Assembly: GCA_025766275.1 (NCBI GenBank)
Contig: JAFKAC010000010.1
Location: forward strand, 372,001-436,000
DNA from: Lactarius indigo
Lineage: Eukaryota > Basidiomycota > Agaricomycetes > Russulales > Russulaceae
Direction: 5' to 3'
DNA: 64,000 bases
Part shown: piece after piece, positions 22,407-62,574 of the stretch
Position numbering within the stretch: position 1 is the stretch's first letter
Layout of the letters: the number at the start of each line of letters is the position of its first letter
Translations under genes and position numbers: made by a program
The notes under the pieces: generated by a model
What the model saw: only the letters and a program-made list of their open reading frames with translations
The model's database searches: none
What the model was told of the DNA's origin: nothing

Positions 22407-22436
22407 TCACCCTCCTTTTAAGTGTGAGACCCTGAC

Positions 22437-31295: not shown

Positions 31296-31307
31296 TCACC
31301 CCCCTCC

Positions 31308-37244: not shown

Positions 37245-37247
37245 CTA

Positions 37248-42085: not shown

Positions 42086-42650
42086 TGTTATGATCTGACG
42101 CTTCGGACCTAAGTCACAGTATGTCTCCACCCTGCCTTCCCCCTTCCGTACTATACCTTGTTACCAAAGGAGCTACTGTTACTAGTGGCGCTGTTTCTTT
42201 GATCCGAACTTCTGTTTACTCCGTTTAGTCTCTTTGATACTGTGTGGACTTGTGTTCATGTTGTTTGGAACCCTGTCCTATATAAACCTGTACCATAGAC
42301 CGTAGGAAGCCAGACTTGGCTTCGTTTGCAATCTAGCAACCTTGCCTCCATACTTTGGTGTGACCTCGCCTTATCCCTCTCTTCTTGTGCATCCCCTACC
42401 TCAGTCCTTAACCAGGACACTTCAAAGTCTTTGCAGTTGAACTATATCAACGTGTTACACCTGTTATACTCTGTGCACTAGCAAGATCAAGTGTAGAGAA
42501 GTGTTAGACACTTCAGATGAGGAGTCCTACATTACAGAGTAGTGCTGCACCTTGTGCCGCACTTTTATCACTCGTATTTCATAGCAATAAGACAACAGAG
42601 GTCTTCGCTTGATACTTGTGTGATTCAGAACCTTTAGAACCCACGCCCCT
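42086..42650 (+). repeat. D 5' LTR, first piece
   Basis: 565 bases, TGTTATGATCTGACGC... TATA box TATATAAA at 42279-42286; predicted mRNA start AGACTTGGCTTCG at 42312, 33 bases on. E is inserted 14 bases before the LTR end. Confidence 0.95.
42279..42322 (+). promoter_or_regulatory. D LTR TATA box and predicted transcription start
   Basis: TATATAAA (42279-42286) and AGACTTGGCTT (42312-42322). The start is inferred from the usual TATA distance and from complementarity to the primer site. Confidence 0.7.
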
Positions 42651-42708
42651 TGTCATGAATGCCCCATATTTCTCCTCTTCTTTCCCATTCTTTCCTTCGC
42701 TTCTTTGT

Positions 42709-42806
42709 CTTGCTGGCATCTGCTTTGCTGGCATTTGCTTTGCTGGCATCTGCTTTGCTGGCAGGTGCCCCGCTGGCATTGTAATTGCCTCGCTGGCATC
42801 CCTGGA
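42709..42806 (+). repeat. GCTGGCAT tandem repeats in the E LTR
   Basis: Several imperfect 15-base units, GCTTTGCTGGCATCT and variants, upstream of the TATA box. Repeated in the right LTR (about 48585-48682) and, inverted, in solo LTR S3. Possibly binding sites in U3. Confidence 0.7.
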
Positions 42807-42813
42807 CGCTAGC

Positions 42814-42858
42814 TATATAAACCCTGTAGTACACCCTGTATATCCTTAGCTTTGGCTT
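42814..42858 (+). promoter_or_regulatory. E LTR TATA box and predicted transcription start
   Basis: TATATAAA (42814-42821) and TTAGCTTTGGCTT (42846-42858), 32 bases between their starts. Confidence 0.7.
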
Positions 42859-43067
42859 CGTCAATATACTGTCTAGTCCCCTCAGTATCTTCCTTTCATC
42901 TCTATCACAGTCCTCTTCTCTGAAGCCTTGTTGCCTTGAGCTATATCAAGGAACATCCACAGACTTAGGTGCCGTTCTGCTCAGCAGCGGACCAACTCAG
43001 TATCCATCGCCTTAGGCAGGACCTGTTACAGACCAACCCGACGCACGCCCCGACAGTGGCGTGACAT

Positions 43068-43080
43068 AAGCCAAAGCTAA
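43068..43080 (+). other. E self-primer site
   Basis: AAGCCAAAGCTAA, one base inside the 5' LTR border; a perfect 13-base complement of TTAGCTTTGGCTT at 42846-42858. Confidence 0.82.
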
Positions 43081-43104
43081 CAAACTCCCTGATCACTTGC
43101 CATC

Positions 43105-44820
43105 GTGGCTAGTGTTGAACTCGACCTTCTCCCTGACGATCAGTGGACGGAAGTTTTCCGCCGCTGGAACGACGATCTCCCGACACACGTACTCGGGTGT
43201 GCTTTCTGGAATACAACCCACGTTGACCGACGCAGAGGCTATCGAGCTCTCCTACAAGGACGCATCTTTCACCTCGAATTCATAAACCACCGGTGGCACG
43301 TCCTCGAGAAACGCGGAACCGAATTCTTCACTAGGACATCCCTAGTTATCCCCCGAAACAACGACGTCGGTCTTGGCTGGTGGAACCCAGAAGACGACGA
43401 GAACCCTGAGTGGTATCATCTCGACCATCCCGAAACCTTTCCTGAACCAACTGCACCAGTTCGCGTAAACACCCCTGTTGAGGAGGACCATCCCATCGAA
43501 AACAACGACACCCCTGCTGAAACATCAGCACCAGTTGAAAACGAGCTCGCCGCAGCCCTAGAAAACGTACCCATCGACGCCCCAGACTTTTGGCACCAGA
43601 TTGCAGCTGCCTCAACACCCGTCTCACCCGTATTCCCACCTCTTCTCACCGTCACAGCACCACCCGTTATCACCCCATCAGCACCCGCCATGTCCTCGGG
43701 ATCCGCAGCCAACACCTCGTCGGGAGGGAAGCTCAGCGGTAATACCCCAGCCATATTCGATGGCTCCCGCGATAAGTCGAAGAAGTTCCTTCGAGAATTC
43801 GACCTGTATCGCGGTATGAACGAAGATTCATCGGTCATCCGATCACCCTACCAGCGCGTATTCCTGGCATTATCCTTCATCCGCGGGCCGAACGTAGACA
43901 ACTGGGTCGACACCCAGTTGGAAGGACTACGCACAAAAGTCAACGGCACTGCCACAGCAGCAGCCATCCCGAAAACCGATGAGTCGTTATGGAACGATTT
44001 CGTCACCAGCTTTAAATCAGCATACACCAATGTTACGGAAAAGCAGGACGCTTACCAGCTGTTAAAAGCACTCCAGATGAAGGGATCCGACCTTGACACG
44101 TATACCGCCACGTTCCAGAATCTTGCCGCGAAGGCAGGATACGCTCTCGACGCCGCAGCCACAGTCGACCTCTATTCGGGAGGATTGCTGCGTGGCCTCT
44201 TATCGGCCATCTTGAAACGCGACACCGTACCTGAAACATTCGTCCAGTGGGTCGAATCAGCCCAAAAAGAACAACGGAAGTACGCGATGCTTCGCGCTCG
44301 TGTAGGCCTCAACGACGGGGGCAAAAAGATTGGCGGAAAGACTAAGCAGGAATGGTTTCAGCTGCTCAATTCGAGTGGCAATCACGGAGGAGGACGACGT
44401 ACCAACAACCAATCCAATCCGCAGACCACGACTCCGATCCGCGATCCCGATGCAATGGATGTCGATCGTGCTCGTATCGCGTTAACCGACGAAGAAATGC
44501 AGCGTTGCCATTCAGAAGGCCGTTGCTTCCGTTGCTTCGGGAAAGGCCACCTTTCACGTGACTGCCCGAAGCGATCGACTAGCCAGAATAGCGGTGGGAC
44601 AACAACGATTTGCCAAAACGACAACCGTCGCAGAAATACGACTTCCGCACGTATTGCCGAGGTCGAACCGACCCCGGCACCAGTAACGACCGTTCCCAGC
44701 CCCGCTGCACCAACTCCACAGAAAAAGAACGGCGACAGCTTTGTTGCCCAGGTCCGTGCCATGAAAAACGACGAAAAAGAGGCCATCCTCGACGCGCTCT
44801 TCACCGACGAGGATTTTTAG
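43105..44820 (+). CDS. Chromovirus E gag
   Basis: 571 codons counted from GTG 43105 (context ATCGTGGCT); no ATG precedes in frame and the frame is closed by TGA about 15 bases upstream. N-terminal domain WTEVFRRWNDDLPTHVLG...FHLEFINHRW resembles those of D and G. Pro/Thr-rich linker, then the capsid-like core (PAIFDGSRDKSKKFLREFDLYRGMN to about residue 400), NPDAMDVDRARIAL-type stretch, zinc knuckle CFRCFGKGHLSRDC (about 44525-44565), and an acidic end DEEDF-like tail with stop TAG 44818-44820. The stop sits in GGATTTTTAG; pol follows one base back. No lesions seen. Confidence 0.9.
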   Translation: MASVELDLLPDDQWTEVFRRWNDDLPTHVLGCAFWNTTHVDRRRGYRALLQGRIFHLEFINHRWHVLEKRGTEFFTRTSLVIPRNNDVGLGWWNPEDDENPEWYHLDHPETFPEPTAPVRVNTPVEEDHPIENNDTPAETSAPVENELAAALENVPIDAPDFWHQIAAASTPVSPVFPPLLTVTAPPVITPSAPAMSSGSAANTSSGGKLSGNTPAIFDGSRDKSKKFLREFDLYRGMNEDSSVIRSPYQRVFLALSFIRGPNVDNWVDTQLEGLRTKVNGTATAAAIPKTDESLWNDFVTSFKSAYTNVTEKQDAYQLLKALQMKGSDLDTYTATFQNLAAKAGYALDAAATVDLYSGGLLRGLLSAILKRDTVPETFVQWVESAQKEQRKYAMLRARVGLNDGGKKIGGKTKQEWFQLLNSSGNHGGGRRTNNQSNPQTTTPIRDPDAMDVDRARIALTDEEMQRCHSEGRCFRCFGKGHLSRDCPKRSTSQNSGGTTTICQNDNRRRNTTSARIAEVEPTPAPVTTVPSPAAPTPQKKNGDSFVAQVRAMKNDEKEAILDALFTDEDF

Positions 44821-47800
44821 CCAGCTCGGATCCCACGGCCTGGGTTCGAGCCTTCAAAGTAGACAGCATGTACGTATGCCGACGAAATAGCCTGCAAATA
44901 TCAGTCATTTTCCAATCTACTTGCGAAACGGCCGAAATCGCGCTTGTTGACAGTGGTGCAACCGAAAATTTCATCCATTCCCGAGTCGCTCAACGACTAA
45001 AGCTCCCTACACGATGACTTACCACGCCTCGAACGATTCGGAACGTCGATGGCACCGAGAATCGAGCAGGACGAATCGACAAATATATCGCATTGAAAGT
45101 ACAGCTCGGAAATCAACACGCGACTCAGCGTTTCTATATTACCGACCTAGGGAACGATGACATCCTGTTAGGGTATCCATGGCTTCAGCAATTCGAACCA
45201 GTAATCGACTGGAAGCAAGGAATACTCACCCCGGAACCCCTCCATCTCTCTACCCTCCTCGTACCCATAACGCGTCGATCCACCACGATCCAAGTCGAAG
45301 CCCCCGACGGGGGAGACGCATTCGTGGTCCAGGACGACCCCTGCAGCCCAGAAACAAATCCGATCGACGATCAGACGACGAACTCTACAGCAAGAGAGAG
45401 TCACCACCAGACGCTATCCCCCTACCTGGTCGTAAGGGCGGCCGCTTTTAACGAGTGGCGGTCGCTTGTAGACGCCATCGACCCCTGGGAAGCTGGAGAC
45501 GAGTTACACATCAGAATGCCAGAAGAGGAAGCGATCCGAGGAACGAATATAGCCCAACAATGGGCTATAGAGGCGAATAAAGACAAGGCCAAGTTAACTG
45601 AAGATTCGATCCCCGCCGAATACCGCCGCCACATCAAGGTATTTTCCGAAGCGGAATCTCAACGCTTCCCACCATCACGTGACTGGGACCATGCAATCGA
45701 ACTCGCCCCAGATGCACCTGCCACCCTCGACTGTAAAGTGTATCCTCTAACTAAGGATGAATGGGGGGCACTACAAAAGTTCCTAGATGAACATTTGGCA
45801 AAGCAATACATTCGCCCATCACACTCCCCTTATGCCAGTCCCTTTTTCTTTATTAAGAAAAAGGACGGGAAACTGCGACCTGTTCAAGACTATCGGCGCT
45901 TGAACCAACATACCATTCGCAACACGTACCCCCTTCCTCTCATTAAAACCCTCACTGAAGGCCTTAGAGGCAGTCGCCTCTACACCAAATTTGACATCAG
46001 ATGGGGGTATAATAACGTGCGAATTAAGGAAGGCGACGAATGGAAAGCGGCCTTTAAGACGGAGGAAGGACTGTTTGAACCACGCGTTATGTTTTTCGGA
46101 CTAACCAACTCACCCTCTACCTTCCAAGCCATGATGGACACCATTCTACGCACCCAGCTGAAGGCGGAGAGCCGCCGCTATGTCTTTGATTACATGGACG
46201 ACATTCTTATCGCCACCCCGGATGACCTCCCTCTCCATCGCGCTATTGTCCATGAGGTACTTGACATCTTAGAACGTGAGAGCCTCTTCCTCAAACCAGA
46301 AAAATGTACCTTTGAAGCACGACGAGTGGAGTACCTGGGACTCATCCTTGAAGGCGACAAAATTGAAGCTGACCCTACTAAACTTGCCGGACTCAGAGAC
46401 TGGCCCCGCACCCTTAAAACAGTTAAACAAGTACGCAGCACCTTGGGCGTCTTCGGGTACCAATGACCTTTCATCCCAGGCTTTGCCAACATTGCTCGAC
46501 CACTCACTAATCTACTGAAGAAGGACTGCCCCTTTATCTGGACTCCTGAGTGCACGGCGGCTATCGATAAACTTGTCACCATTCTTACCAGCTCTCCGGT
46601 TCTTTGGCAACCTGACCTGAGTGCCCCTTTTGAAGTTGAAGTCAACGCGTCCGCCTTTGCCACTGGAGGCATCTTATACCAGCGTGACGCTAACAACAAA
46701 CTCCGACCAGTCGCATACCACTCTAAGACATTTAATGAGGCAGAGCGTAACTACGACATTCACGACCGAGAACTGCTTGCTGTCATCACTGCTCTTAAGG
46801 AATGGCGACACTTCCTCCTTGGCTCCCCACACCCTGTCACCATCTATACCGACCACGCAAACCTCCAGTACTATAAACAACCCCACAAGATCAACCGGCG
46901 CGTTGCCCACTACATCCCCTTACTAGGGGAATACAACCTTCAGCTCGTCCACAAACCTGGTGCCACTAACCGTGCTGACGCCCTCTCTCGTCGACCTGAC
47001 CATGACGATGGTTCAACTGACAACCAGGACATCACCGTCCTCCCTGCACAACTCTTCACCCGCTCCGCTCAGCTTCCCTCGCTTACGCAGACTGCCCATG
47101 CCCTCCAGCAGTCACACCTTTCCACTATTCTACGTTGGAAGGACCCTTATGGACTCTCCTTATCTGATGGTTCCTGGTGGCATGACACCCGCCTTGTGGT
47201 CGTGGAAGACCCCAATCTTAGGAGGGGGGTAATTTCCCTCTATCACGACTCCCCTAGCGCCGGCCACCCAGGAATCGCCAACACACACGCCCTGGTTTCA
47301 CGCGACTACTGGTGGCCAGGAATGCGAAACACCATTATAGCCTATGTTAAAGGCTGTGCTGCTTGTCAGGCAAACAAATCCATCTCCCATCGACCGCGAC
47401 CCCCACCTTTTCCGATTACCACCAACCCCTCAGCACGACCATTTGAAACAGTAACCATGGACTTCATCACCAAACTCCCCCTTTCTCACGGGTTTGACTC
47501 CATACTGACAATCACGGACCACGATTGCACCAAGGGGACGCTGTTTATCCCTTGTAAAGAGTCAATCGATGGCCCTGGAGTAGCAGCACTCTATCACCGA
47601 CACGTTTACCCCCACTTTGGACTACCCACCCGCATTATCACTGACCGAGATCCCCGCTTTGCCTCTGCCTTCTCTCGGCAACTGTGCAAATCCCTGGGAA
47701 TCACACAGAACATTTTGACCGCTTATCACCCACAGACAGACGGGCAATCGGAGCGATCCAATCAGTGGCTGGAACAATACCTGCGCTTCTTCTGCAACGG

Positions 47801-48515
47801 ACGACAGACAGATTGGGTAGACTGGCTCCCCTCTGCCCAGTTTGCGCACAATAGCTGGCCAAATGCCACCACGCGCCGCACCCCATTTGAACTCCTCATG
47901 GGACACACCCCCCGCACCCCTGGTACTCATCTAACCAACCAGGTTGTCCCATCTGTCAATGAGCGCCTCACAGCAGTTTCAGACTTGCGTGCGCTGGCAC
48001 AGCAGGGCATCAAGGCAGCTCAGGAAATGACTACCAAAATCCCTGCTTCCTTTGTCCCCTACAAGGAAGGCGACCTCGTTTGGCTGGAAGCGAAGAACCT
48101 TACCACATCACATCCCACCGCTAAACTGGCACCCAAATGCTATGGTCCATTCCCCATCATTAAGGTCATCTCCCACGTTGTCTATCAGCTGGCACTTCCG
48201 ACAACATGGAAAATCCATAATGTCTTCCATGCGTCCCTTCTACTCCCCTACCATGAAACTGCCGAGCATGGCCCGAACTTCTCGCGCCCAGCTCCTGATC
48301 TTATCGATGGGGAGGAAGAGTACGAGGTTGAAGAAATTCGTGACTCGCGACGGCGACACCGCCAACTCCAGTACCTTGTTAAGTGGAGAGGTTACCCAGA
48401 CGCAGACAACACTTGGGAGCCCCACAGCAATGTCCACGCCCCTGACCTTATTCAGGCATTCCATGACATGCATCCAGATGCCATTCGACTTGGTGACGTG
48501 GAAGTCACTCCTTAG
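44803..48515 (+). pseudogene. Chromovirus E pol
   Basis: Frame entered from gag by the slip site at 44811-44820. Protease ALVDSGATENFIHS (intact), reverse transcriptase (KFDIRWGYNNVRI, DYMDDILIATP), RNase H (VNASAFATGG...DRELLAVITALKEWRHFLLG), integrase (HPGIANTHALVSRDYWW...CAACQANK; core MDFITKLPLSHG, TDRDPRFASAF, TDGQSERSNQWLEQYL) and chromodomain (EEEYEVEEIRDSRRR...LQYLVKWRGYPDADNTWEP), ending DVEVTP at 48515. Two in-frame TGA codons: 45015-45017 (after LPTR) and 46464-46466 (after FGYQ, where D has CGA). All motifs are otherwise intact, and the long middle stretch 46467-47195 is open though it lacks an ATG. Confidence 0.92.
44811..44820 (+). promoter_or_regulatory. E gag-pol slip site
   Basis: GGATTTTTAG: GAT TTT TAG in the gag frame, TTT TTA in the pol frame one base back. 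Same design as in D (50837-50845). Confidence 0.6.
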
Positions 48516-48526
48516 AACGGGGGTAA

Positions 48527-48942
48527 TGTCATGAATGCCCCATATTTCTCCTCTTCTTTCCCATTCTTTCCTTCGCTTCTTTGTCTTGCTGGCATCTACT
48601 TTGCTGGCATTTGCTTTGCTGGCATCTGCTTTGCTGGCAGGTGCCCCGCTGGCATTGTAATTGCCTCGCTGGCATCCCTGGACGCTAGCTATATAAACCC
48701 TGTAGTACACCCTGTATATCCTTAGCTTTGGCTTCGTCAATATACTGTCTAGTCCCCTCAGTATCTTCCTTTCATCTCTATCACAGTCCTCTTCTCTGAA
48801 GCCTTGTTGCCTTGAGCTATATCAAGGAACATCCACAGACTTAGGTGCCGTTCTGCTCAGCAGCGGACCAACTCAGTATCCATCGCCTTAGGCAGGACCT
48901 GTTACAGACCAACCCGACGCACGCCCCGACAGTGGCGTGACA
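48527..48942 (+). repeat. E 3' LTR
   Basis: 416 bases, one G/A difference from the left copy. Preceded by the purine tract ACGGGGGTAA (48517-48526). Confidence 0.96.
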
Positions 48943-48947
48943 CCCCT

Positions 48948-48961
48948 GCTAGGGCGTAACA
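48948..48961 (+). repeat. D 5' LTR, second piece
   Basis: GCTAGGGCGTAACA, the last 14 bases of the D LTR after the E insertion. Confidence 0.93.
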
Positions 48962-48962
48962 T

Positions 48963-48973
48963 AAGCCAAGTCT
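48963..48973 (+). other. D self-primer site
   Basis: AAGCCAAGTCT, one base inside the 5' LTR border; a perfect 11-base complement of AGACTTGGCTT at the predicted mRNA start (42312-42322; also 55979-55989). Confidence 0.82.
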
Positions 48974-49169
48974 ACAACTCCCAACACACCCAAGACACTA
49001 CTGCCACACAGCAGAGTGGGCGACGATCCAAGAGGACGCATCAGCCAACAACCAGACACTCCACAGAACCCAGAAACGACGGCATAGCCGGGCGACGGAT
49101 CCTCCTTGACACAAGAGGCCGCTTCAGCCATCCCCTTACACAAATCAGCACCCAAGACAGACCACAATT

Positions 49170-50861
49170 GTGGCTAGCATCAGTGTCACCTTTGAATCAG
49201 ACAACGATTGGACCCCAGTCACAACCAGAACACAAGACGACCTCCCACACCACGTTAAAAGCAGTCAACTAGGAAAAGGAGCTCGCTGGGCCACAACATC
49301 AGGCAGACCACCTTGTTACAAGTGCCTCATCAAAGGCGAACTCAGACCAGTGGAATTCATCAACAACAACTGGTACATCCTCCGATACTTTCAGAATACA
49401 TACCACACCAGGGCCATAAACATCACACCACACAGATTTGCTGAAGGACTAGGCTGGTGGAACGAAGAAGACAAACAGAACCCAGAAACGCCCACACAAC
49501 AATCATCCTCAGCACCAAGAAACACTAGGGGAACATATGGACTACAACAAGACTCATCAGAAGAAGAACCCAGCTCAGACGAAGCAGAATCACACTCAGA
49601 ACTATCCCACCCCTCAGAACACTGCCTAGACATCACAGTACCCACACAAGCTTCGTCACAAGCCAGCCCCACTATCCCTATCTGGATAGAACCATCCCCA
49701 GCGGAAGAAGGATTCCCAGCCCCACTACCACCAATCAGATTGCCCTCCCCAGTCGAACCACCCCAGATCCCCATCACACCACAGCCAACACTTATCATGT
49801 CAGCCATAAACGCCACAGGCACTGGCACAGGTACCGGCTCAAGCACCGGAACAGGAGGAACACCAACAACGAGCTCAGGAGGACTCAAAGGAGCACCCCC
49901 TACTCCGTTCACCGGACATAGAACAGAGAGTGGTCAGTTCAAAAGAGAACTACTACGATACATCAAGTTAAATAGTGAGAATTAACTCATCAAAGAACCT
50001 TATGCACGGGTACTATTCGCCCTTACAATGTTCAAAGGACCCGGTGTACAGCTGTGGGTCAACCAAACCGAAGATGACATGGAAGCGGCACTAGCAGACC
50101 CCACCAAAGCCCTCACCAAAAACAGCAAAGATCTTTGGGACGGTTTCCTCGACACCTTTGACAGAGACTGGACCGACACTCTAAACAAAGAAAGAGCCTA
50201 TCAGAAGCTCATCAGTTTGACGATGCAGGGTGGAGCATTGGACAGTTACATCCTCGACTTCGAACACATTGCAGGGATAGCAGGATGGGCAAGAGATGCC
50301 CCTGGAACGGTGGAATTCTTCAAAAGAGGACTACCCACAGGACTGTATCGTGCTTGCCTTATGCGAACCACCATCCCAAACACCATGGACGAGTGGCAAA
50401 CCGCTGCCAGAGCAGAACACCAACGCTGGAAGCTACTAAAAGCCAGACCAGGGAATAGAAACCCAGGGCCAACCCAGAATGTCCACCAAGGACGACCAAA
50501 GCGAGACCCAAATGCGATGGATGTAGATGCCACCACCTCCACCCCCTTTAAGAAGCTTACTGAAGAAGAAAAGAAAGCCCTCATGAAAGAAGGACGCTGC
50601 TTCAAATGCAGACAGCAAGGACACATGGCTAGGAACTGTCAACGACAAAACACCACCAACCAAACCAAAGCCAGAGCCACAGACACCCAAGAAGCGGACA
50701 CTGCACCCCCATACACCCCAGAAGCAAGCACCTCATCAGTAGCTGCTACCACAACCGAAGATAAAGTCCGACAAGCCCATGCACTCGTCCAAGGCATGAC
50801 TGAAGAAGAAAAGAGGCGCTACTATGCCTTAGATCAGGATTTTTGCGATGCCAACCTGTGA
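49170..50861 (+). pseudogene. Chromovirus D gag
   Basis: Frame counted from GTG 49170 (context ATTGTGGCT), with no ATG nearby in frame. N-terminal domain WTPVTTRTQDDLPHHV...PVEFINNNWY, acidic Ser/Pro-rich linker (to about residue 210), capsid-like core, NAMDVDATTS-like stretch and zinc knuckle CFKCRQQGHMARNC (about 50600-50640). A TAA at 49983-49985 (after NSEN, before LIKEPYARVLF) splits it; CAA glutamine is the likely ancestor. It ends DQDFCDANL at 50861; the pol frame overlaps and starts one base back at GGATTTTTG (50837-50845). Confidence 0.9.
50837..50845 (+). promoter_or_regulatory. D gag-pol slip site
   Basis: GGATTTTTG: GAT TTT TGC in gag, TTT TTG one base back in pol. Located 17-24 bases before the gag stop. 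Confidence 0.6.
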
Positions 50862-53800
50862 GAGCTGACAGGGAGGCCAATTCAATGTATAGTGTTCGCG
50901 ATAGTGCTATGACAATCAAAGTCCTCGTTCGCCTTTACTACAAAGAAGCTCGCATAAATGTGCTGCTGGACAGCGGTGCAACAGACAACCTAATCGACCG
51001 AAACCTAATCCAAAAACTTGGACTAGGAACCACTCCTCTGAAACCACCCAGATTGGTCCGAAATGTAGATGGATCGCTAAACAAAGATGGCACCATGACA
51101 GAAACATGCCAGTTATGGATAAAAAGAGGAGAAGAAGAAACTCCTTTCCAGTTTTTCGTAACCAGCCTAGGGGAAGACAGAATGATCTTTGGATACCCCT
51201 GGTTCGAACACGAAAACCCAGACATAGACTGGAAGAAACAAGAGCTGAAAGGAGAAGCCGTCACCATCCTGACAGGAGGGTACCGCTTCCGAAGAAAGCG
51301 ACACCAAGAAGCGAAAGCGGCAGCAACCAAAACAATCTTTGACCCAGTAAAAGAAACTGCAATCCCAGAAGAATACCAGCGCCACAACAAAGTATTCTCA
51401 GATGAAGAAGCACAGCGCTTTCCCCCAGAACGAGAAGAAGACCATCCCATCACATTGCGACCAGATGCACCCAACAAGATCAACTGCAAAATCTACCCTT
51501 TGACTCCAGAAGAAGACAAGGAGTTGAAGGCATATCTTGACGAAAACATAGCAAAAGGATACATCTATGAAGGAAGCTCCCCCTACGCTTCCTCCTTCTT
51601 CTTCAGAAAGAAAACAGATGGAGGGTTGTGCCCTATCCTGGACTACAGACCCCTAAACACCTGGACAATAAAAGACACTTACCCACTACCTCTCATCTCC
51701 GACATCCTGACCAACTTAAATGGGAAAACACTGTTCTCAAAGTTCGATATCAGATGGGGGTACCATAACATCCGCATAAAAGAGGAAGACCAGTGGAAGG
51801 CAGCCTTCAAGACACCAAGGGGGCTGTTCATCCCTCGAGTCATGACCTTCGGTCTCACAAATGCACCAGCCACCTTTGCAAGAACCATGAGCAGAATACT
51901 TCGACCACTTATGGACAAATACCCAAGAGAGCTATTTGTGTACATGGACAATGTCCTGATAGCCACAGAAGAAGATACAGAATGCCACAGACAAATTGTA
52001 CACGAGTTCTTGGAAATCTGTGAAAAGGAATCTTATTTCCTTAAAGCGTCGAAATGCGTGTTCGAACAAAGAAAGATCCACTACCTAGGCATTGTCATCG
52101 ATGGGTCTCAAATCAAAATCGACCCAAAGAAGGTAGAGGGACTAAAAGACTGGCCAAGAGACATCAAGTCAGTCAAACAAGCAAGAAGCGTGTTGGGAAC
52201 ACTAAGTTATCAGCGACCCTTCATCCCCAACTTCGCTCACTTAGCAAGACCCATCACAGACACAATAAAGACGTCAGAAGGACCCTTCAGATGGACAAAG
52301 GAAGCAGCAGAAGCCTTAGAAGCTCTCATCACGCTTGTGTGCTAAGACCCCATCTTATGCCAACCAGATATGGACAAACCTTTCGAACTAGAAGTAGATG
52401 CCTCCGCTTTCGCCACAGGGGCAATCTTAACACAAAGAGACAGCCGAAACAAACCACAAGCTGTGGGATACTTCTCCAAATCATTTTCAGAAGCGGAGCG
52501 CAACTATGACATCCATGACAGGGAACTCCTGGCAGTAATCAGAGGACTGGAACACTGGAGACACCTTCTTTTAGGGTCCCCCCACGAAATCACAGTGTTT
52601 ACAGACCACAAAAACCTAGAATATTATCGCCACCCTCGACAAATCAATAGGAGAGTGGTGCGCTACATCCCCAGACTTGCAGACTATCACATCAAACTTC
52701 ACCACAAACCCAGACCCCAAAACCATGCTGATGCCCTGTCAAGACGCCCTGACCACGACACCGGAGCAGAGGATAACACTGATGTAGTGGTCCTGACCCC
52801 AACCATCTTCGCAAACTCCACTCTCTCCATAAGGATAGATGACCGGGTCATGGCACACCAATTAGACCACCAAGACACTCTGGATGAGTGGGCCGCCCCC
52901 TTTCACCTAGTAAAACAAGGCAAACACTGGTGGAGAGGTGACAAACTGGTGGTTGTGGACAACACACCGCTAAAGAGGGGGGTAATTTCCCTGTTTCACG
53001 ATACAAAAACAGCTGGACACCCCGGAATAACAAAGACCTTGTGGTTAGTGTCACAAGACTTTTGGTGGCCAAACATGAAAGACGACATATCCGCATATGT
53101 AAAGGGCTGTGCCACATGCCAATCAAACAAGAACTTCCCTGGGAACCCGAAACCACCGATATTCCCCATCAAGACTAACCCAGAAGCACTCCCTTTTGAA
53201 ACCATCGCTCTAGACTTTATCACAAAGCTACCCCAATCAGAAGACAATGACACAATTCTCACCATCACGGATCACGACTGTTCCAAAGCAGCCTTCTTTA
53301 TCCCATGCAGCGAAACAATAGACGCAGAAGGAGTGGCAAAACTCTATGCCAAAACTGTCCTGCCACACTATGGACTACCAAGAAGGGTCATCTCCGACAG
53401 AGACCCCAGATTCACAGCGAAGTTCATCAAAGAACTGTGCAGAGTGCTTGACATAGAACAAAACATCAGCACAGCATACCACCCACAAACAGATGGACAA
53501 TCAGAGCGAACAAACCAGTGGTTAGAACAGTACCTCCGAATGTTCATTAACCATCAACAAGACAATTGGACGGAGCTACTACCACTGGCACAGTACACCC
53601 ACAACTCCTGGCCAAGCGCAACCACTAAAAAGGCACCCTACGAATTAATCCTTGGGTACATCCCAAGAGTACACCAACCAGAAAGAACGACCACAGTACC
53701 AGGAACACAAGAGAGATTGGAGCAAATCCAGGAAGCCAGAAGGACCGCCCAAGCAGCAATTACCCATGCACAGTCACTCTACAAAGGATCCTCTCGCTTC

Positions 53801-55726
53801 GAACAACACACAGAAGGAGATAGTGTGTGGCTGGATGCCAGGAACTTGAAAACAATGCACCCTAGTTTCAAGTTAGCCCCAAAAAGATATGGACCCTTCA
53901 GGGTCACAAAGAAGATCTCCGCCACCACATATGCCCTGAAACTTCCCCATCAGTGGCAGATCCACCCAGTATTCCATGCGTCACTCCTGATGCCATACAA
54001 AGAAACCTCCATACATGGAAAGAACTTTACGGAACCACCCCCAGATCTAGTAGATGGAGAACAGGAGTGGGAAGTCGAGAAAATACTAGAAACAAGACGC
54101 CACAGGAACCAGTTACAGTTCCTAATCAAGTGGAAGGGATACTCTGATGCACACAACAGTTGGGAACCAGAAAAGAACCTCAACGCCCCAGAACTTATTC
54201 AGGAACACTTTGAAAGCAACCCCAGAAGCGAAGGAGCAAAGCAATGGTTAAAACGAAAGGAAGTAACAGTACGAACAGCAACCACCTTCCCCACTAGCTT
54301 CCTCACCATGCCCTCTCGCTCCTCCTCTGTAGAACGTCTTGTTGCTCGTGCCATGGAAAGAGGCTCCTTTGACGAAACACCCTCTGTCACACCCTCCTCT
54401 GGCTATTCTCCCTTCCCAGCACGACCCCCTTCCTTGCCTTCACTCATCCAGGAACCACAACCCATCGATCCCACCATGCCCAGCATCATAGAAACAGAAG
54501 GAGGAGGAATAGCCCTTCGCGTTCCCCCTCCTGGACACACAGCTCCCCCTACTCCCGAGATACACCGACCTACCACCTCCCCCCCTGATCCTAGAGTGAC
54601 CATGGCTCGTCTCAGCGAAATAACCAACGACCCAATCATGGACGCACTCCCCATTAACTATGAAAGGATGCACATCACTGCTGAAGAAGACGACGACCCT
54701 GGCTACCCCTTCTTCTTGAATGACCCCTGGAGCAGCCGCTATGTCCACTTCCTCATCCCTGACGACGCTGACCCAACCTCGTACATCCGGAAGGATGCCA
54801 AATGGATCAAGATCAGTGAAAACAAAGAAGATGTCATCGGCACCATGGGCAAGAACCTCCCTCACTATGGCCTCCCCCTTTTCCTCCTTCCCAGAGACGA
54901 CGACCCCCACAATCCAGCTCCCCCCATTACCCCAGCTCAGATGCAGAACTTGGACGAAGCTTCCCCCACAGCCAGACAAGTCGATGAAGTCCTAGAAGAC
55001 CTGAAAGATGACCGCCTCACAGCAGAAATCTCCAGGACTCGCTGACTCTTGTGAAACCAGAAGGCCCTCCGAAAGGAGATTGAAGGCCTGTACAAGACGA
55101 TGGAGCCCCTCAAAAGGCACCTCCTCAACATGGACATGCAACTAACCAGCACCCGAAGAAGGCTGCAAGAACACAAGGCCTATGTCCAGATTGCAGACCG
55201 ATGGCTCACACTACACCCCCCTCCTCCGGAAGAAGAAACTCACCCCTTTGAAGTCCACCACATTCCTGCCCCTGCTCCACCTCGCTACCACTCCATGCCA
55301 AGACTCCACGACGAACCAGAAGGACCTAGCCCCTCTGCAGAAAGGAAGAAGAGACGCAAGCGCAGAGCCAACAAGAAGGAGACTGGCACCATTCGACTTT
55401 GTTACAGGTGTCAGTCTGAAGACCACCTCTCCTTCGCCTGCCCTCAAAAACAGAAGTTTTGCTGGAGGTGTTCTAGCACTGACCACTTCCCCTATCAGTG
55501 CCTCTGGCCAGCCCCAGAAGAACGCACTCAGTGGTGTGGCAAGTGTTTTACCAGCAACAGCCACGAAGAAATCAAGTGCCCCAAGTATGAAAATTGTCGC
55601 AAGTGTGGGGCCCATGGTCCCTTCAACTTCCTTCGCCAACATCGCTGCCCCCTCCCTCGCGAAAGCACCCCCTCTAACGATGTAGACAATGATGTCTATG
55701 ACCTGATGGACTTCAAAGCACTCTAG
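50843..55726 (+). pseudogene. Chromovirus D pol with C-terminal finger extension
   Basis: About 1,630 codons in one frame, with three stops: TAA 52343-52345 (after LITLVC), TGA 55043-55045 and TGA 55052-55054 (in TR-stop-LL-stop-NQ). Order: protease VLLDSGATDNLIDRN, reverse transcriptase (KFDIRWGYHNIRI; VYMDNVLIA, so the YMDD-type motif reads YMDN), RNase H (EVDASAFATGA...DRELLAVIRGLEHW), integrase (HPGITKTLWLVSQDFWW...CATCQSNK; core LDFITKLP, SDRDPRF, TDGQSERTNQWLEQYL), chromodomain (LQFLIKWKGYSDAHNSWEP, ending near 54200). After that come about 490 extra residues: a Pro-rich linker, a globular-looking part, a helical part (LRKEIEGLYKTMEPLKRHLL) and Cys-rich fingers (55403-55665). Most chromovirus pol proteins end soon after the chromodomain. 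Confidence 0.92.
55403..55665 (+). other. Cys-rich finger array in the D pol extension
   Basis: Two classic CX2CX4HX4C knuckles in a row (CYRCQSEDHLSFAC and CWRCSSTDHFPYQC), then a looser array (WCGKCFTSNSHEEIKC, CRKCGAHGPFNFLRQHRC). Separate from the gag knuckle near 50600. Nucleic-acid binding is likely from the family; its use here is unknown. Confidence 0.85.
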
Positions 55727-55752
55727 GGAGAGTTGACTTAGAGAGGGGCTCA

Positions 55753-56331
55753 TGTTATGATCCGACGCTTCGGACCTAAGTCACAGTATGTCTCCACCCT
55801 GCCTTCCCCCTTCCGTACTATACCTTGTTACCAAAGGAGCTACTGTTACTAGTGGCGCTGTTTCTTTGATCCGAACTTCTGTTTACTCCGTTTAGTCTCT
55901 TTGATACTGTGTGGACTTGTGTTCATGTTGTTTGGAACCCTGTCCTATATAAACCTGTACCATAGACCGTAGGAAGCCAGACTTGGCTTCGTTTGCAATC
56001 TAGCAACCTTGCCTCCGTACTTTGGTGTGACCTCGCCTTATCCCTCTCTTCTTGTGCATCCCCTACCTCAGTCCTTAACCAGGACACTTCAAAGTCTTTG
56101 CAGTTGAACTATATCAACGTGTTACACCTGTTATACTCTGTGCACTAGCAAGATCAAGTGTAGAGAAGTGTTAGACACTTCAGATGAGGAGTCCTACATT
56201 ACAGAGTAGTGCTGCACCTTGTGCCGCACTTTTATCACTCGTATTTCATAGCAATAAGACAACAGAGGTCTTCGCTTGATACTTGTGTGATTCAGAACCT
56301 TTAGAACCCACGCCCCTGCTAGGGCGTAACA
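55753..56331 (+). repeat. D 3' LTR
   Basis: 579 bases, preceded by the purine-rich AGAGAGGGGCTCA (55740-55752). TATA 55946-55953; start core 55979-55989. Two transitions from the left copy. Confidence 0.95.
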
Positions 56332-56336
56332 GCATA

Positions 56337-57320
56337 CAAGGCAACACCGATTGATTCAGAGGCCCAATCTATCTTGGGCTCTACGACCTCTGTAATGGAG
56401 GCGGTGGTAGGTACTAGGACATGACTATTGGCAGCCTTGTTGCCTGCTTTCTCCTTCTCCTTTGTGTCAGCCTCATCCTTCTTCCTCTTCCTGCAATCAG
56501 GCTTGATATGGCCCTTTTTGTTGCAGTAGTGGCAAGTTAGACTGGAGTGGTCCTTCTTGCCCTGTTTGCCTGTCGGCTTGACGGGGGCCACCTTGTTGAG
56601 GGAGGAGCCAGAGGGCCCAGCGCGGCGAGCTTCTTCCGACACTATGCGCGCTATGATCTCAGCGTGTTTAAGTCCAGAAGGGGCCCCACTGGCGAGGATG
56701 GTAGAGGCCAACACCTCATAAGAGGGTGGCAGTGCGTGGAGGAGGATGAGACAGAATTGAGTGTCAGTGACACCCATCTGTGCGTTGGAAAGGGCAACCC
56801 GCAGCTCATTGAGCTTGGCCAACTGAGAGGCCATGGGTGCGGAGTCGTCAAGGCGGGCTTGCGTCAGCTGGATCCACAAGTTGAAGATAGTGGTGCTGCC
56901 CGAAGCACCAGCATATACATCTCTGAGCTTGTCCCACTTGGCTTTGAAGGTGGGATAGGCGGCATTGTCGGCAACAAGGGAGTAGATGTCGGGTTTGAGG
57001 TAGAGGCGGAGGTACGCCTTCGCCCGACGTTGTACTGACTCCCATTCGTCTTGAGCGACGTCAACTGGTCCATGGTGGAGGGTGAACACATCCTCTGCTT
57101 CGTGCAGCGTGAGGATGGCTTCAATTGTCCCAGACCACTCATTCCAGTGAGTGCCATCGAACTGTTCAAGGCGAATGCCAGAGGGCATGCCGAATGTTGC
57201 GCCATAGGCGGCAGAGATACGTGTAGAGGGTGTGGACCCAGTGGGGGGAAGCGTGGAGCCCCCCGCAGTAGCAGTAGCACCGGCAGCAGCGCCAGTGGGA
57301 GATGGTGCGCGAGAAGACAT
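56337..57320 (-). CDS. Copia B gag (5' part of gag-pol)
   Basis: ATG 57318-57320 reads MSSRAPSPTGAAAG. A low-complexity start is followed by a UBN2-type gag (GIRLEQFDGTHWNEWSGTIEA, LWIQLTQARLDDSA, LLHALPPSYEVLASTILAS) and a zinc knuckle CHYCNKKGHIKPDC (about 56500-56545), then a basic linker and a short stretch to LYA where D is inserted. It is one frame with 42085-38759; the join across one copy of GCATA keeps the frame. No lesion. Gag packages the RNA in virus-like particles (family knowledge). Confidence 0.92.
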
Positions 57321-58078
57321 TGGGATGATTTATCTATCGCCGAGGAGCAGTCAGCGACAGTGCTTCATAGTTTGCAAGACAAAGATAGATGGGGGATACC
57401 ACTCCTGTCTGTGATTCTGTAAGGCCAGAACGCTAACACGTCCTGCCTCCTGATAGTATGCCAGTGATACAAGGGCTAGGCCCAGGTTGGGAGAGTCCCT
57501 TTGCCATACCATGAGCTAGCTGCCAGCCAGGACGTGTCTAAGACACAGCTCAAATGGTTTGCGTCAGGGGGAAGGTGAAGGGAAAGCTTTCAGAGCCCAA
57601 GGCTGTCTACCTCAGCCTTCTCAGCCTGTTGGTTGCCTCATCGCCACAAGTGGCTTTACTGAATCCTTTCCCATTGCCGCTACAAGGCAGGTATCTGGTT
57701 GCAGAACACCATAAGGTGAACACCCCCCAGAGTCTGAACCAGGTTTTACACTCCCATGGTGAGGAGATCCTGCGCCCAGTGTGGAGCACCAGAGACAGCT
57801 GGCGCTAAGCTCCACAATACACAGCCCAGTGGGCCATGCACACCTGGATATTGATTGAAGGGCTACCAGACCCAGTCTCCTTGTGCATAGTGCAGGGGCT
57901 AGGAAAACAGTAGGGGTGAAAGTAGGACTACTGGGCAGTACATACACAGGAGGTTCCTCAGCAGAGACAAGTGGCGCCCCACTGCTCTCTGCCTTGGGCA
58001 AGGCTGGTAAGGCCCCAGACAGACCTTAGCCTGGTGTGTCCTCCTAGGAAGACAGTGACCAGCCAAGTGGAGTGGCTA
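57321..58078 (-). other. B leader
   Basis: About 760 bases between the primer site and gag ATG. No coding frame of note recognised. Confidence 0.6.
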
Positions 58079-58079
58079 G

Positions 58080-58098
58080 GGCACCAGGGCCCATAACC
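58080..58098 (-). other. B primer binding site (initiator tRNA-Met half)
   Basis: The minus strand reads GGTTATGGGCCCTGGTGCC next to the 5' LTR, almost the same as in F. It complements the initiator tRNA-Met anticodon arm. Confidence 0.8.
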
Positions 58099-58715
58099 TG
58101 ATGAACAGCAAGATGGAACCTATACTCACAGTGGGACAAAGTACTGTGGTGAGATAGAGGTAGCAACTGGTAAGCAGCAGAGGGGAAGTCTTGCAAGTGA
58201 AGCAGAAGTAAAGTCTGGCACACAACAGTGAGGGAACTGATTATACAATTGAGAGGAAAAGACATACCTGGCACACAACAGTGAGGGAACTGATGTGGAC
58301 CAGGAGCGTACAAGCACTACTACTTATACTATACAGGAGGGTGACACAACTACAAGGTAGGTAACAGAGTGTCACAGAATACAAGGGACGCATTGTTCTA
58401 CAACAGGACAAAGGAGTGTGTGTAAAGGGAACAAGGCGTGCAAGAACAAGGAAAGTCCAGACAAGGATGATATCATAATGACATCATAATAAAGATAAGA
58501 ACTAAAGGAGAACAAAGTACTGAGTACAATGAAGTGTCTGGAGTGTTCTACATGATGTCATAGTACATGATGTCATACATGACGCAATGATTAGCGCTAG
58601 ATTGTACAGATCAAATGTAAGTAATCTACAGGTCCAATCAATCTAATCTAAAGCAGGCCATGCTGCAAGTCCGGTCCGTACAAGCCGCTAAGTTCGCAAG
58701 GGTCACTTATCAACA
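58099..58715 (-). repeat. B 5' LTR (right)
   Basis: 617 bases, uninterrupted, TGATGAACAG...TTATCAACA. Nine differences from the split left copy. Confidence 0.95.
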
Positions 58716-58720
58716 AATAT

Positions 58721-59010
58721 CACAGTGATATCTCGGTCCAGCTGGTCATACTACGTCCCAGTGGGAATCTATCGGGTTCCACATAACCTCTGTCCAACAT
58801 AAGTGGTCGAAGTTGAACTCAACTGGTCGGAACCGTGTAGGTCTGTTAAACTCCACAAAATATCCGGTTTCTTCTTGTCTCTCTCTCCAACTGGCTGCCC
58901 CTAGGAAGTGTGTGGGCACATTGCGATCCCCTCTTTGGGTTAGCATATAGGGACGGAAACTTGTCCACCGGTCTCTTGTTGTTACAGCCACAATGTGATC
59001 TTGGTCCTAA
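58721..59010 (-). pseudogene. Chromovirus A gag N-terminus
   Basis: Frame opens at the LTR border (TAG then GACCAAGAT...). The likely start is GTG 58989-58991 in the context ATTGTGGCT. It reads AVTTRDRWTSFRPY...FLGAASWR...PVEFNFDHLCWTEV and runs to HWDVV, where copia B is inserted; the rest is at 30100 and below. It is about 90 percent like the same domain in G by eye. The domain is shared with D and E, so it is a conserved part of gag in these elements; its fold is unknown to me. Confidence 0.88.
58998..59010 (-). other. A self-primer site
   Basis: TTAGGACCAAGAT on the minus strand. AGGACCAAGAT pairs with ATCTTGGTCTT (59222-59232) with one G-U pair. Confidence 0.75.
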
Positions 59011-59530
59011 TGTAATGTCGTCACAACATTAGCTCGACTTGAGCTTTGGATTGGCGATAACAACTTAGCAAATAGTCACGACGACATGAAGGTCCTCGCT
59101 CTTGCCTCGGTGAACACTCAGAGGTGCATGGGCAAGTCCTTGTCTATAATCCTTTTGAAGGCGAGAAGCGGAAAAGACGTGAGAGAGGGAGAAAGAGAGA
59201 GAACACAAGTGACGATTCAAGAAGACCAAGATGGCGTATCTTGGTCTTCGCGGGTCATCTTAAATACAAGTTGAGCAGGCTTTCAAGCACTGCTATGAGT
59301 CACAGTAATGTAGCATCCAATGTATCACAGAAGTAGCTCAAACCCTAATACTACTAGTACCAGTACTAGTGGCGCGGTCATCAGTCAGCTATTGTACCCA
59401 ATCTCCTATCGCCCTACTGTATCACCAATCGTAAAGGCCTAAGGCCACGAGTCTGTGACTAATTTACCTTACAGCTGTAGTCACCACTGGTACCATAAGG
59501 GTTCAGCGTATCATGAGTTGAAACGTAACA
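59011..59530 (-). repeat. A 5' LTR (right)
   Basis: 520 bases. Minus-strand TATA 59259-59266 and predicted mRNA start core 59221-59232, 34 bases apart. Confidence 0.95.
59221..59266 (-). promoter_or_regulatory. A LTR TATA box and predicted transcription start
   Basis: TATTTAAG (59259-59266) and ATCTTGGTCTTC (59221-59232) on the minus strand. Confidence 0.7.
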
Positions 59531-59535
59531 TTCAC

Positions 59536-60664
59536 CCTGCAATTGATGCAATGACTGCAGTGCGCAACCTCTGGAAATATGAGTTATCCCCTGTGGAGTG
59601 GGGTATTGCAGAAGAACTCAAGGTTGTTTTGAAGGTATATCCTCACATTTTTATTCCTTTTCATTGCTAAATCACTTTCTCAAAGATATTTAAGGACGCG
59701 ACACTTTTCTTCTCTCGGGGAACCCCAAATCTTGCCACAGTTATTCCCACAATGGACCACATTGACAAAGTCCTCTCCACTGCATCTGATTCCCAACAGT
59801 ATTCTCTTCCTATCCGTGCTTCTCTGGTTGTTGGGAAGAATGCAATCAACCAGTATTACAACAAGACGGACCAGTCCGAAGTTTACCGCATTGCCATGAG
59901 TAAGTCTTTGTATATTTTGTTTCAATTGTTCCTAATGTATGTTACTGGACAGTCCTTCACCTGCAACACAAGCTCGCTTACTTCAAGGCGCAAGACTGGG
60001 AAGAGCCTTGGATTGAGATGGCCTACACCCTTGTTCGTGAGGAGTATGACCACTCATATGATGCTCCTGCAGGTGTAGATGGCAACGACACTGAAACTGA
60101 CAATGTCAATTCGTGTTCTGTTGATTCGGTATGTGTCTCTTGATACTTCTTCCTTTTGTTCTGACTTAGCCTTCTCTACAGCCATTTTCTTCGTCAAACA
60201 ACATATTTGACCACTTACTGGACCTAGCCCCGACTTCATCAGATCTCCGTGATGAGCTCGATTGCTACCTCGCCACCGACACAGAGGATGTCAAGGATGG
60301 CCTTGAATGGTGGTACAAGAGACACTCCACCTTCCCATGTTTATCCTGCATGGCTCGGGTTTATCTTTCGATTCCAGGTATGTCATCCTCTCATCATTTG
60401 TGAGCTTTGCTTACACTTGTTCTCATTTTAGCGACTTCAGTCGACGTCGAACGTGTCTTCAGTCAAGGACGACTTCTTCTCTCTCACGTGCGCAGCCGCC
60501 TTTCTGCTCAATCAACACGTGCTCTCTTGTGCCTCGGCGAATGGAGCATCCTTGACCTTGTCAAGGACAGTGACATCAAGGCATCCATTGGTCCAGACAG
60601 TGTCCATGACAAGGAGGAGGAAGAGCTTGCTGAGGACTGGGACACCATTCCAACCTTTAACTAA
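59536..60664 (+). pseudogene. hAT transposase, block 3 (end of catalytic domain and dimerisation region)
   Basis: Continues FALDFH directly as PAIDAMTAVRNLWKYEL. Four introns restore the frame: 59635-59685, 59900-59952, 60129-60181 and 60378-60431 (51-54 bases, GT...AG), bringing visible introns in the gene to eight. Motifs: DATLFFSRGTPNLATVIPTM, HKLAYFKAQDWEEPWIE, and the C-terminal hAT dimerisation region with WWYKRH and SVDVERVFSQGRLLLSHVRS holding the catalytic Glu region. Stop TAA at 60662-60664. No lesion is seen in this block. It belongs to the family as shown by the order of motifs across the three blocks. Confidence 0.92.
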
Positions 60665-60945
60665 CTAATTAGACTCACAGCTGTCCACCACGTTACTGTT
60701 GCCACTGCACCTTGTGCAGGTTGAATCGCAAATCATTTGTCTGCTTTAGCTTGTGTGAACCCCATCTCTGTGAGCCAACACGTGAAGCTGTCAAACCTGT
60801 GTGAACCCACCAAACCTGTGTGAACCCACCAAACCCGTGACCCATGACCGTACCCATACCTGTATGCACGGGTTACCTGTACCTGCAACCACAGGTACAG
60901 GTTGAGGCGGGTACGGGTACAGGTTGAGTTGGATCGACACACGGG
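60665..60945 (+). other. hAT 3' untranslated and subterminal region
   Basis: Short; holds tandem AAACCTGTGTGAACCCACC units near 60797-60835 and CCTGTACC/GGGTAC motifs mirrored at the left end. Confidence 0.65.
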
Positions 60946-60964
60946 TGACCTGTGTCAATCCCTA
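60946..60964 (+). repeat. hAT right terminal inverted repeat
   Basis: TGACCTGTGTCAATCCCTA, the inverse of 2689-2707 with one mismatch. Confidence 0.85.
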
Positions 60965-62020
60965 AATAGGAGGCATCTCCTGTAGTTGTTTTGCATGATA
61001 GGGGCATCCAGGTTCATGCCCCAGTAAATGTGCCACTGCATCAAAAATTGGTCTACTTTGAGTCTGTCTCCGTCGAAGATGGAAGGAGGCTCACCCGTTA
61101 ATTTTTCATTGTGGTGGCCGCCACCTCTGACGTCTCCTGCACCACCTCCTCCGCCACCTCCTCCAGGTGGTCCAGCAGGCAGTCCTCCTCCTGGCGGTCC
61201 TCACGGGGGTTCAGTTCATCGTATGTCAAAGGGGATTCCTCCTCCTGGTGGCAGTGGTGGGTCTCCACTGGGCCCTCCTGTACCGGGCGGTAGTTCTAGC
61301 GTGGGTCATCTTCCCAACAGAGGGTCTCCTCAGTCGGATCCTATCGCTCTGAATATTGCGGCGTCGTCGGCAGTCATTCGTACGCCTGTTTCTGGATTGA
61401 TGGGCATGAGTATTGCCCTTGCTTCTTCTCGTATTGCACGCAATTCTTCTAGTGCCACTTCTTCCATTGCTTGCATGATAGTTGCCATTAGTGCTGGCAA
61501 GTGTACGTGAATTGGTTCGGGTTCGGTAATATGAGCAGACTCAGCTTGTTCTACAAGGAGCTCTTGTGTTGCTCCTGTGCTGCTCTCTGTACGTTCTGGC
61601 TGTCGTCTGCTGTCTTGTTCTTCGCTTTGAGAGGTTTCGTCAGAAACAGCTTCTCCGGTGGTGTGTTCCCTCACTTGTCCATCAATGGGACCCCAATCTG
61701 CGTGGCTATTGAGTTCTCACGCGTCGATATCGCAGTGGTACCTTGGTCCGGCTGGTCGCACTACATCCCAGCGAGAGTCTATTGGGTTCCACGTAACCTC
61801 TGTCCAGCACAGATGGTCAAAGTTGAACTCAACTGGTCAGAACCGTGTAGGTCTGTTGAACTCCACAAAGTATCCTGTTTCTTCTTGTCTTTCTCTCCAA
61901 CTTGCCACTCCCAGAAAGCGTGTTGGTACATTGCGATCCCCTCTTCGGGTTAGCATATAAGGACGGAAGCTCGTCCACTGGTCTCTTGTTGTTACGGCCA
62001 CAATGATATCTTGGTCTTAA
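60965..62020 (-). pseudogene. Gypsy I gag fragment
   Basis: Frame opens at the LTR border; start context ATTGTGGCC. N-terminal domain (VAVTTRDQWTSFRPY), then REHTTGEAVSDETSQ and AESAHITEPEPIHVH through MTADDAAIFRAIGSD (stop at 61330), then a Pro/Gly-rich region and FLTQW-like capsid start in eroded frames, up to 60965. The arginine in FRAIGSD is CGA here, where G has TGA. Truncated at the hAT end. Confidence 0.85.
62008..62020 (-). other. I self-primer site
   Basis: TTAAGACCAAGAT on the minus strand; 11-base perfect complement of the start core ATCTTGGTCTT in the adjacent LTR (62250-62260). Confidence 0.8.
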
Positions 62021-62178
62021 TGTAACGTCATCACGACGTTAGCTCAACTTGAGCTCGGCAGAGGTGATAACAACTTAGCAAATAGTCACGATGACTCGAA
62101 GGTCCGTGCTCTTGCCTTAGTGAACACTCGAAGGTGCACCGGCAAGTCTTACTTCTGATTCTTGAAGGCGATAAGTTG

Positions 62179-62218
<40 letters not shown>

Positions 62219-62574
62219 ATAGAGAAGGAGAAACAAGTGACGATTCAAGAAGACCAAGATGGCATATCTTGGTCTTCACCAACTATCTTAAATACAAGTC
62301 AAGCGGGCTTACAAGTGCTGCTATGAGTCACAGTAAACTAGCGTCCAACGTATTGCAGAAACTGAGCAAACCCTAATACAACTACTAGGTGTACTAGGGT
62401 TGAGTCATACCATAACGCCGCTACCTCCTATCTGTAATCGCTGTCCATCGTAAAGGCCTAAGGCCGTGAGTCCGTGACTAATCTACCTTACTGCCGTAGT
62501 CACAACCGGTATAGTAAGGGTCCATACTCGTTCCACTTCTCATACAAGTAACTGTCAATGTGCAAAACGTGACA
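62021..62574 (-). repeat. I 5' LTR
   Basis: 554 bases, TGTAACGTCATCACGACG...AAACGTGACA. TATA 62287-62294, start core 62249-62260 (minus). It is longer than in A and G and includes an AG dinucleotide run. Confidence 0.92.
62184..62214 (+). repeat. AG dinucleotide run in the I LTR
   Basis: About 31 bases of alternating A and G. Confidence 0.9.

Follow-up and report, generated by a model that had tools for sequence, protein, structure and literature searches.

Among the systems described in the papers cited here, the closest are retrotransposons that prime reverse transcription with their own RNA. The first 11 bases of the Tf1 RNA are complementary to a primer-binding site (PBS) that adjoins the long terminal repeat (LTR), and the cut in this RNA falls between its bases 11 and 12 (PMC7175516); a leader RNA of three duplexes, the 'pretzel', has been described for the same element (PMC10085805). 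Self-priming has been described as common among Tf1/sushi elements (PMC10085805), was proposed for Tcn1 of Cryptococcus (PMC7175516) and was predicted for moss elements of the Tcn1 clade (PMC6317226), and in one Tcn1 element of a spikemoss neither kind of primer was seen (PMC2864245).

Here, we analyzed a window of 64,000 bases from Lactarius indigo (contig JAFKAC010000010.1, positions 372,001 to 436,000), which is part of an assembly of 90.3 Mb in 291 contigs (GCA_025766275.1). The window consists of nested LTR retrotransposons. Two of them are Copia elements (RVT_2) and the remaining relevant ones are Gypsy, which we labeled A-type (elements A, G and I) and classes C, D and E. It is very probable (roughly nine chances in ten) that these Gypsy (Ty3-like) elements, which have a chromodomain where this was scanned, use the 5' end of their own mRNA as the primer of reverse transcription, in the manner of Tf1. 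Transcription would start at, or a few bases before, a sequence located 33-36 bases past the TATA box; this RNA end of 10-13 bases would fold back onto the PBS, 0-2 bases beyond the 5' LTR, and the RNase H of the element would cut after the duplex, leaving a freed 3' end that could prime minus-strand DNA. The pairing itself, its position, its conservation and its compensated variants are direct observations.

Predicted self-primer and PBS pairs in the window

All six window elements with a readable PBS have this site complementary to 10-13 bases of their own LTR, as had been claimed in an earlier reading of the window without database searches (the sequence-only reading). Five of these pairs are exact and the sixth contains a single G-U, which that reading had correctly noticed but assigned to element A, whereas by our labels it belongs to element G. 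At the six junctions, the LTR ends with CA, 1-2 bases follow, and then come the 10-13 complementary bases. Counted from the first T of TATA, the primer begins at 34 in A, G and I, at 35 in C and at 33 in D and E (in E from the second of its 13 bases); a spacing of 32-36 bases had been read, and 33-35 was measured. Solo and partial LTRs, the last four entries below, keep this spacing, again as read earlier.

18515..18525, (-) strand: element A, self-primer ATCTTGGTCTT, TATA+34
18531..18541, (-) strand: element A, upstream inverted copy (U3 arm) AAGACCAAGAT, between TATA and primer
18287..18297, (-) strand: element A, PBS AAGACCAAGAT, 11 bases exact
59222..59232, (-) strand: element G, self-primer ATCTTGGTCTT, TATA+34
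58998..59008, (-) strand: element G, PBS AGGACCAAGAT, 11 bases with one G-U
62250..62260, (-) strand: element I, self-primer ATCTTGGTCTT, TATA+34
62008..62018, (-) strand: element I, PBS AAGACCAAGAT, 11 bases exact
38026..38035, (-) strand: element C, self-primer AACTTGTCCT, TATA+35 (repeated, with no TATA, at 37958-37967)
37749..37758, (-) strand: element C, PBS AGGACAAGTT, 10 bases exact
42312..42322, (+) strand: element D, self-primer AGACTTGGCTT in the 5' LTR, TATA+33
48963..48973, (+) strand: element D, PBS AAGCCAAGTCT, 11 bases exact
42846..42858, (+) strand: element E, self-primer TTAGCTTTGGCTT in the 5' LTR, second base at TATA+33
43068..43080, (+) strand: element E, PBS AAGCCAAAGCTAA, 13 bases exact, one base past the LTR
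20349..20359, (-) strand: A-type LTR without partner (solo), primer sequence at TATA+34
26843..26854, (-) strand: E-type solo LTR, primer sequence at TATA+33
29736..29747, (-) strand: diverged E-type LTR, primer sequence at TATA+34
63765..63775, (+) strand: diverged A-like LTR, primer ATCTTGGTCTT 34 bases past TATAAG (counted by hand), U3 arm GAAGACCAAGA

A match at least as long anywhere in the LTR was obtained in 2 (A), 4 (I), 10 (C), 2 (D, for which the 3' LTR was used) and 0 (E) of 2000 first-order shuffles. For element G this exact-match statistic fails (4 bases, 1999/2000) because of the G-U. The PBS matches the LTR of its own class over 10-13 bases, compared with 4-9 bases in the LTRs of other Gypsy classes (the PBS of G excepted). 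We also ran a pair finder on both strands of the window and of 20 loci of 10 kb; a hit needed CA, a spacer of 0-3 bases, then 10 bases with their complement no more than 1 kb away, and a TATA-like box with the proper spacing. It gave 50 overlapping hits versus 0.67 per first-order shuffled set; this total includes one slicing artefact and 24 hits that are due to a TACTTAA box, added after class F (see below) had been seen. When the box was not required, there were 213 hits versus 125 in shuffled sequence.

It might be supposed that these sites bind a tRNA or a tRNA fragment and that the match to the LTR is secondary. Ty3 uses a tRNA primer, as do other Gypsy elements, and the two window Copia elements, whose LTRs differ, share the site GGTTATGGGCCC (3544-3555 and 58087-58098, (-) strand), which we take to resemble a half tRNA-iMet site. 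We compared the PBSs with 40 of 63 listed tRNA genes (ARAGORN, introns left in); Met, Asp, His and Pro were absent from the calls on these 40 genes and some isotype calls were odd, which leaves this explanation some room. However, the longest match to these genes was 6-8 bases anywhere and did not exceed 7 of 12 at the 3' end, as against 10-13 bases in the LTR, and in none of the six classes (those of the window and two described below) does the PBS start with TGG, as a tRNA 3' end needs. A tRNA primer would, moreover, leave the fixed TATA spacing and the compensated copies unexplained. A better match by tRNA 3' ends was what the sequence-only reading had set against its own proposal; with matches of 8 bases at most in the 40 genes compared, we rejected tRNA priming as very unlikely. 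The two Copia elements were likewise rejected as self-primed candidates, the longest match to their own LTRs being 4-5 bases.

Covariation in copies elsewhere in the genome

Two extra classes were found outside the window, F (TAAGTCGAGCTT, box TACTTAAG) and H (TAAGAGTAGAC). Diverged copies of A, C, E, F and H were collected by DNA similarity to LTR plus leader, and class D was represented by four near-identical copies; the similarity search scored the best 40 of 101-2279 candidates, part of which were fetched. L011, L013 and L020 (class F, LTRs without PBS) and L024 and L028 (class C, incomplete piece or LTR without PBS) were dropped before counting. Among 131 five-prime copies with both arms, 127 pair exactly, 1 has one G-U and 3 have 1-2 mismatches. 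All copies of C (12/12), D (5/5) and H (24/24) are exact, as are 41/42 of A (the other has the G-U) and 17/20 of F (1-2 mismatches in 3/20), while class E has the common pair in 26/28 copies and a changed yet exact pair in 2/28. The exact pairing covers 10 bases in C, 11 in A, D, E and H, and 12 in F, and the mean pairwise identity of the compared pieces is 0.81-0.91.

Wherever there is a box, the spacing from box to primer is nearly constant, both inside each class and from one class to another. With 3' and solo LTRs included and one overlapping locus left out, a TATA-like box within 50 bases upstream was found at 34 in 52/52 sites of A, 35 in 16/16 of C, 33 in 8/8 of D, 33 in 31/34 of E (the others at 31, 34 and 34), 35 in 29/29 of F and 33-36 in 5 of H. 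The primer letters also occur without a box (A 100, C 37, D 4, E 23, F 19 and H 5 occurrences), and these numbers, which were not checked site by site, fit the occurrences that the PBS, the U3 arm and the second copy in C should contribute.

Primer and PBS change far less than the rest of the TATA-to-PBS stretch, from which the expected numbers of changed cells were taken: 1/924 in A versus 156 expected, 4/616 in E versus 56, 5/440 in F versus 22 and 0/240 in C versus 12. If the dropped rows are retained, the values are 17/495 versus 27 for F and 3/268 versus 14 for C. All 4 changed cells of E belong to two compensated pairs. In copy L031, primer TTTGACTT replaces TTTGGCTT and PBS AAGTCAAAG replaces AAGCCAAAG; copy L043 has primer TTCGGCTT and PBS AAGCCGAAG. 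No unpaired change in the 11-base core was seen among the 28 E copies read. The earlier claim that both partners change together holds across the classes, and it extends to genome copies, including these E pairs.

A pattern search revealed 117 places with an E-type primer and 0 with the reversed pattern. Among the 57 places for which letters were printed, the common core stands in 55; the other 2, which lie 30 kb apart on one strand of contig C11 (31966-62357), carry the L031 core. The L043 core occurs three times in the genome, always on contig C219, with two occurrences on the same strand 6.6 kb apart (412486-419147). Since the changed primers are found again on the same contig and strand, the changes probably stand in both LTRs and in the PBS. 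By our own arithmetic, two exact compensations would occur by chance in about 1 in 1000 cases even at the background rate. One event that entered the LTRs and was then copied into the PBS accounts for them more simply than separate mutations, the alternative being selection for pairing. The Tf1 primer is reportedly not removed; plus-strand synthesis could copy a primer that is still attached, and the daughter PBS could then be rewritten from it. The pairs thus suggest how primer and PBS can drift together: every cycle may rewrite the PBS with the primer as template.

Leader folding and the repeat across the predicted start

Leaders of A, I, C, E, F and H were folded from the primer onward. Unconstrained folding over 205-277 bases gave the primer:PBS duplex, with a mean pair probability of 0.96 (A), 0.75 (I), 0.81 (C), 0.95 (E) and 0.82 (F). 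In the E leader, a CGTC:GACG helix neighbors the duplex and shows some covariation, but it is broken at one pair in 8/25 rows; nothing clear was seen in A. RNAalifold on the A leaders favors pairing of the primer with a coding-like site ~40 bases behind the PBS, and single-sequence folding of A favors the PBS.

Several points weigh against self-priming or against the strength of the counts. The RNA start is predicted from the TATA position only. Class F copies L026, L088 and L092 carry 1-2 uncompensated mismatches, mostly at a CpG in one of the two sites; they resemble post-insertion decay, yet we counted them as pairing failures. Fetching by similarity to LTR plus leader favors conserved copies, and since the D copies that were fetched are four near-identical sequences, they do not count as independent. 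Finally, the duplex probability in H is only 0.195, because CTACTCT, which follows the PBS at a distance of a few bases, can pair with AGAGTAG inside it.

Pairing alone does not reveal its use, and some classes have further hairpins at the same place. The two partners might therefore be paired for packaging, for translation or as a dimer hairpin in the leader, with priming done otherwise. In all six classes, however, one partner occupies the required PBS position, within 0-2 bases of the end of the LTR, and its counterpart coincides with the predicted end of the RNA, which makes such a role in place of self-priming extremely unlikely.

In class A, an exact copy of the PBS (AAGACCAAGAT) precedes the primer, with a 5-base loop between them. 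This upstream arm is unchanged in 42/42 copies; there are 27 versions of the 10 bases before it and 3 of the loop. In class C, the primer is enclosed by an inverted repeat of 10 exact bases, or up to 15 with a bulge. No shuffle had a repeat as good across the predicted start for A or C (0/500 each), D and H were borderline (19/500 for D; 28 and 33/500 for H), and in E and F the repeat was not above chance (76/500 and 358/500). The repeat was accordingly rejected as a general rule. A looser test on the 30 upstream bases alone gave 0.028 for F, 0.008 for H, 0.22 for D, 0.98 for C and 0.99 for E.

A variant compatible with self-priming is that the A and C RNAs start at TATA+20 to +24 and that a 5' hairpin presents or holds the primer. 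The enclosing repeats (11 bases in A) and the unchanged upstream arm of A agree with it. On the other hand, 20-24 bases from TATA is a short distance, and E and F have their primers at the same TATA distance without an above-chance repeat. We consider this variant improbable.

With the start at TATA+29 to +35, as predicted under self-priming, the upstream arm lies outside the RNA 5' end, yet inside the 3' LTR. A self-primed RNA holds the primer sequence twice, and the copy in the 3' LTR could capture the PBS uselessly. The repeat of A and C thus poses the question of how an element keeps this copy out of the way. One tentative and rather doubtful answer is that in A and C (perhaps also D and H) the U3 arm, absent from the RNA 5' end, folds over the primer copy of the 3' LTR and hides it. 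If this masking is true, the transcription start itself would decide which primer copy is free to prime.

Element anatomy and comparison with known systems

The elements that carry these pairs are arranged in the window as follows.

10962-18809, (-) strand: element A (A-type); 5' LTR 18300-18809
59011-59538 (5' LTR) with 21887-22413, (-) strand: element G (A-type)
62021-62526, (-) strand: 5' LTR of element I (A-type)
30520-38536, (-) strand: element C, chromodomain Gypsy with 776-base LTRs; 5' LTR 37761-38536
42086-56317, (+) strand: element D, chromodomain Gypsy; 5' LTR 42086-42650 plus 48948-48961
42651-48942, (+) strand: element E, chromodomain Gypsy with 416-base LTRs

Element E is inserted within the 5' LTR of D, 14 bases short of the LTR end, with a 5-base duplication (CCCCT); because of this insertion, the PBS of D (at 48963) is away from its primer. 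The frames of C and E contain reverse transcriptase, RNase H, integrase, SH3_Tf2-1 and chromodomain, and the single D frame scanned extends from RNase H through to the chromodomain, including SH3_Tf2-1. A C-terminal chromodomain on the integrase, a trait of self-primed Tf1/sushi chromoviruses, is thus present in C, D and E. The part of A that was scanned holds RNase H and integrase only and lies outside the region where a chromodomain would be, and F and H were detected via SH3_Tf2-1.

Several side observations concern individual elements. In element C, a 27-base segment that starts with the primer recurs 68 bases downstream in the LTR, with no TATA before it (37958-37967 and 30717-30726, (-) strand). 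In class H, the PBS and the stretch behind it can fold into a local hairpin (L158-L197, L018, L019, L023 and L025); following the PBS and a few variable bases, CTACTCT is found in 21/24 copies, TACTCT in L166 and L186, and CTACTGT in L182. Gag and Pol seem to be joined in a single open frame of 2127 aa in class H copy L019. The leader of element D (48943-49300) has at least 40 occurrences with 99-100% identity over 358 bases, and the D family is probably a very recent burst. Tubulin matches were found in near-equal-score pairs on separate contigs (C1/C98 and C220/C247); therefore, the assembly may contain two haplotypes, which might make the copy counts too high. Short gaps that split the tubulin matches, together with introns in tRNA genes, point to a fungal genome.

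Identity between the classes is 35-56% over the aligned parts of Pol. On a Pol tree with 70 of 120 listed database relatives, five label changes are needed, each of them imposed by branches with good support, and the six classes occupy at least five places; the relatives were unnamed proteins, some possibly from the same species, and C and F are on long branches. While the sequence-only reading is supported in proposing self-priming of the Tf1 kind, the 'independent pairings' that it saw are, given these places on the tree, better read as pairs that drifted apart in old lineages. Most likely, self-priming was already present in the common ancestor of the classes and was not invented several times.

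With Tf1/Tf2 of Schizosaccharomyces pombe, and with Tj1, Tosmo1-3 and Tcry1 (PMC7175516, PMC4600332, PMC10085805), the elements share the chromodomain Gypsy type and a PBS adjoining the LTR that is complementary to the RNA start, predicted in our case. The transcript start, the cleavage and the 'pretzel' are described for Tf1, whereas the elements here are known from sequence alone, and classes A and C differ from Tf1, as described in these sources, by the extra inverted repeat across the predicted start. In the pairs found here, 10 complementary bases begin 0-5 bases after the LTR, which is the criterion given in PMC6317226. Judged by such sequence criteria, the elements would work like Tf1 and may be regarded as new members of a known mechanism.

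Two other systems are similar in part. The fungal GalEa Copia elements have a conserved hairpin where priming should start; this hairpin replaces the PBS behind the LTR (PMC5445492), whereas classes A and C have a PBS, and their repeat spans the predicted RNA start within the LTR. Among solved structures, the best match of class C Pol is Ty3, but the TGG-type site of tRNA-primed Gypsy elements does not occur here. In a search of the open-access full-text literature, we found neither natural compensatory pairs nor a repeat straddling the start described, and the question posed above by the second primer copy was not met there. The natural compensatory changes are new here, as is the inverted repeat across the predicted start in A and C, which could, speculatively, hide the 3' copy of the primer. 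Six self-primer/PBS pairs in one genome, together with natural compensatory variants, provide a covariation test of self-priming that needs the genome's letters only.

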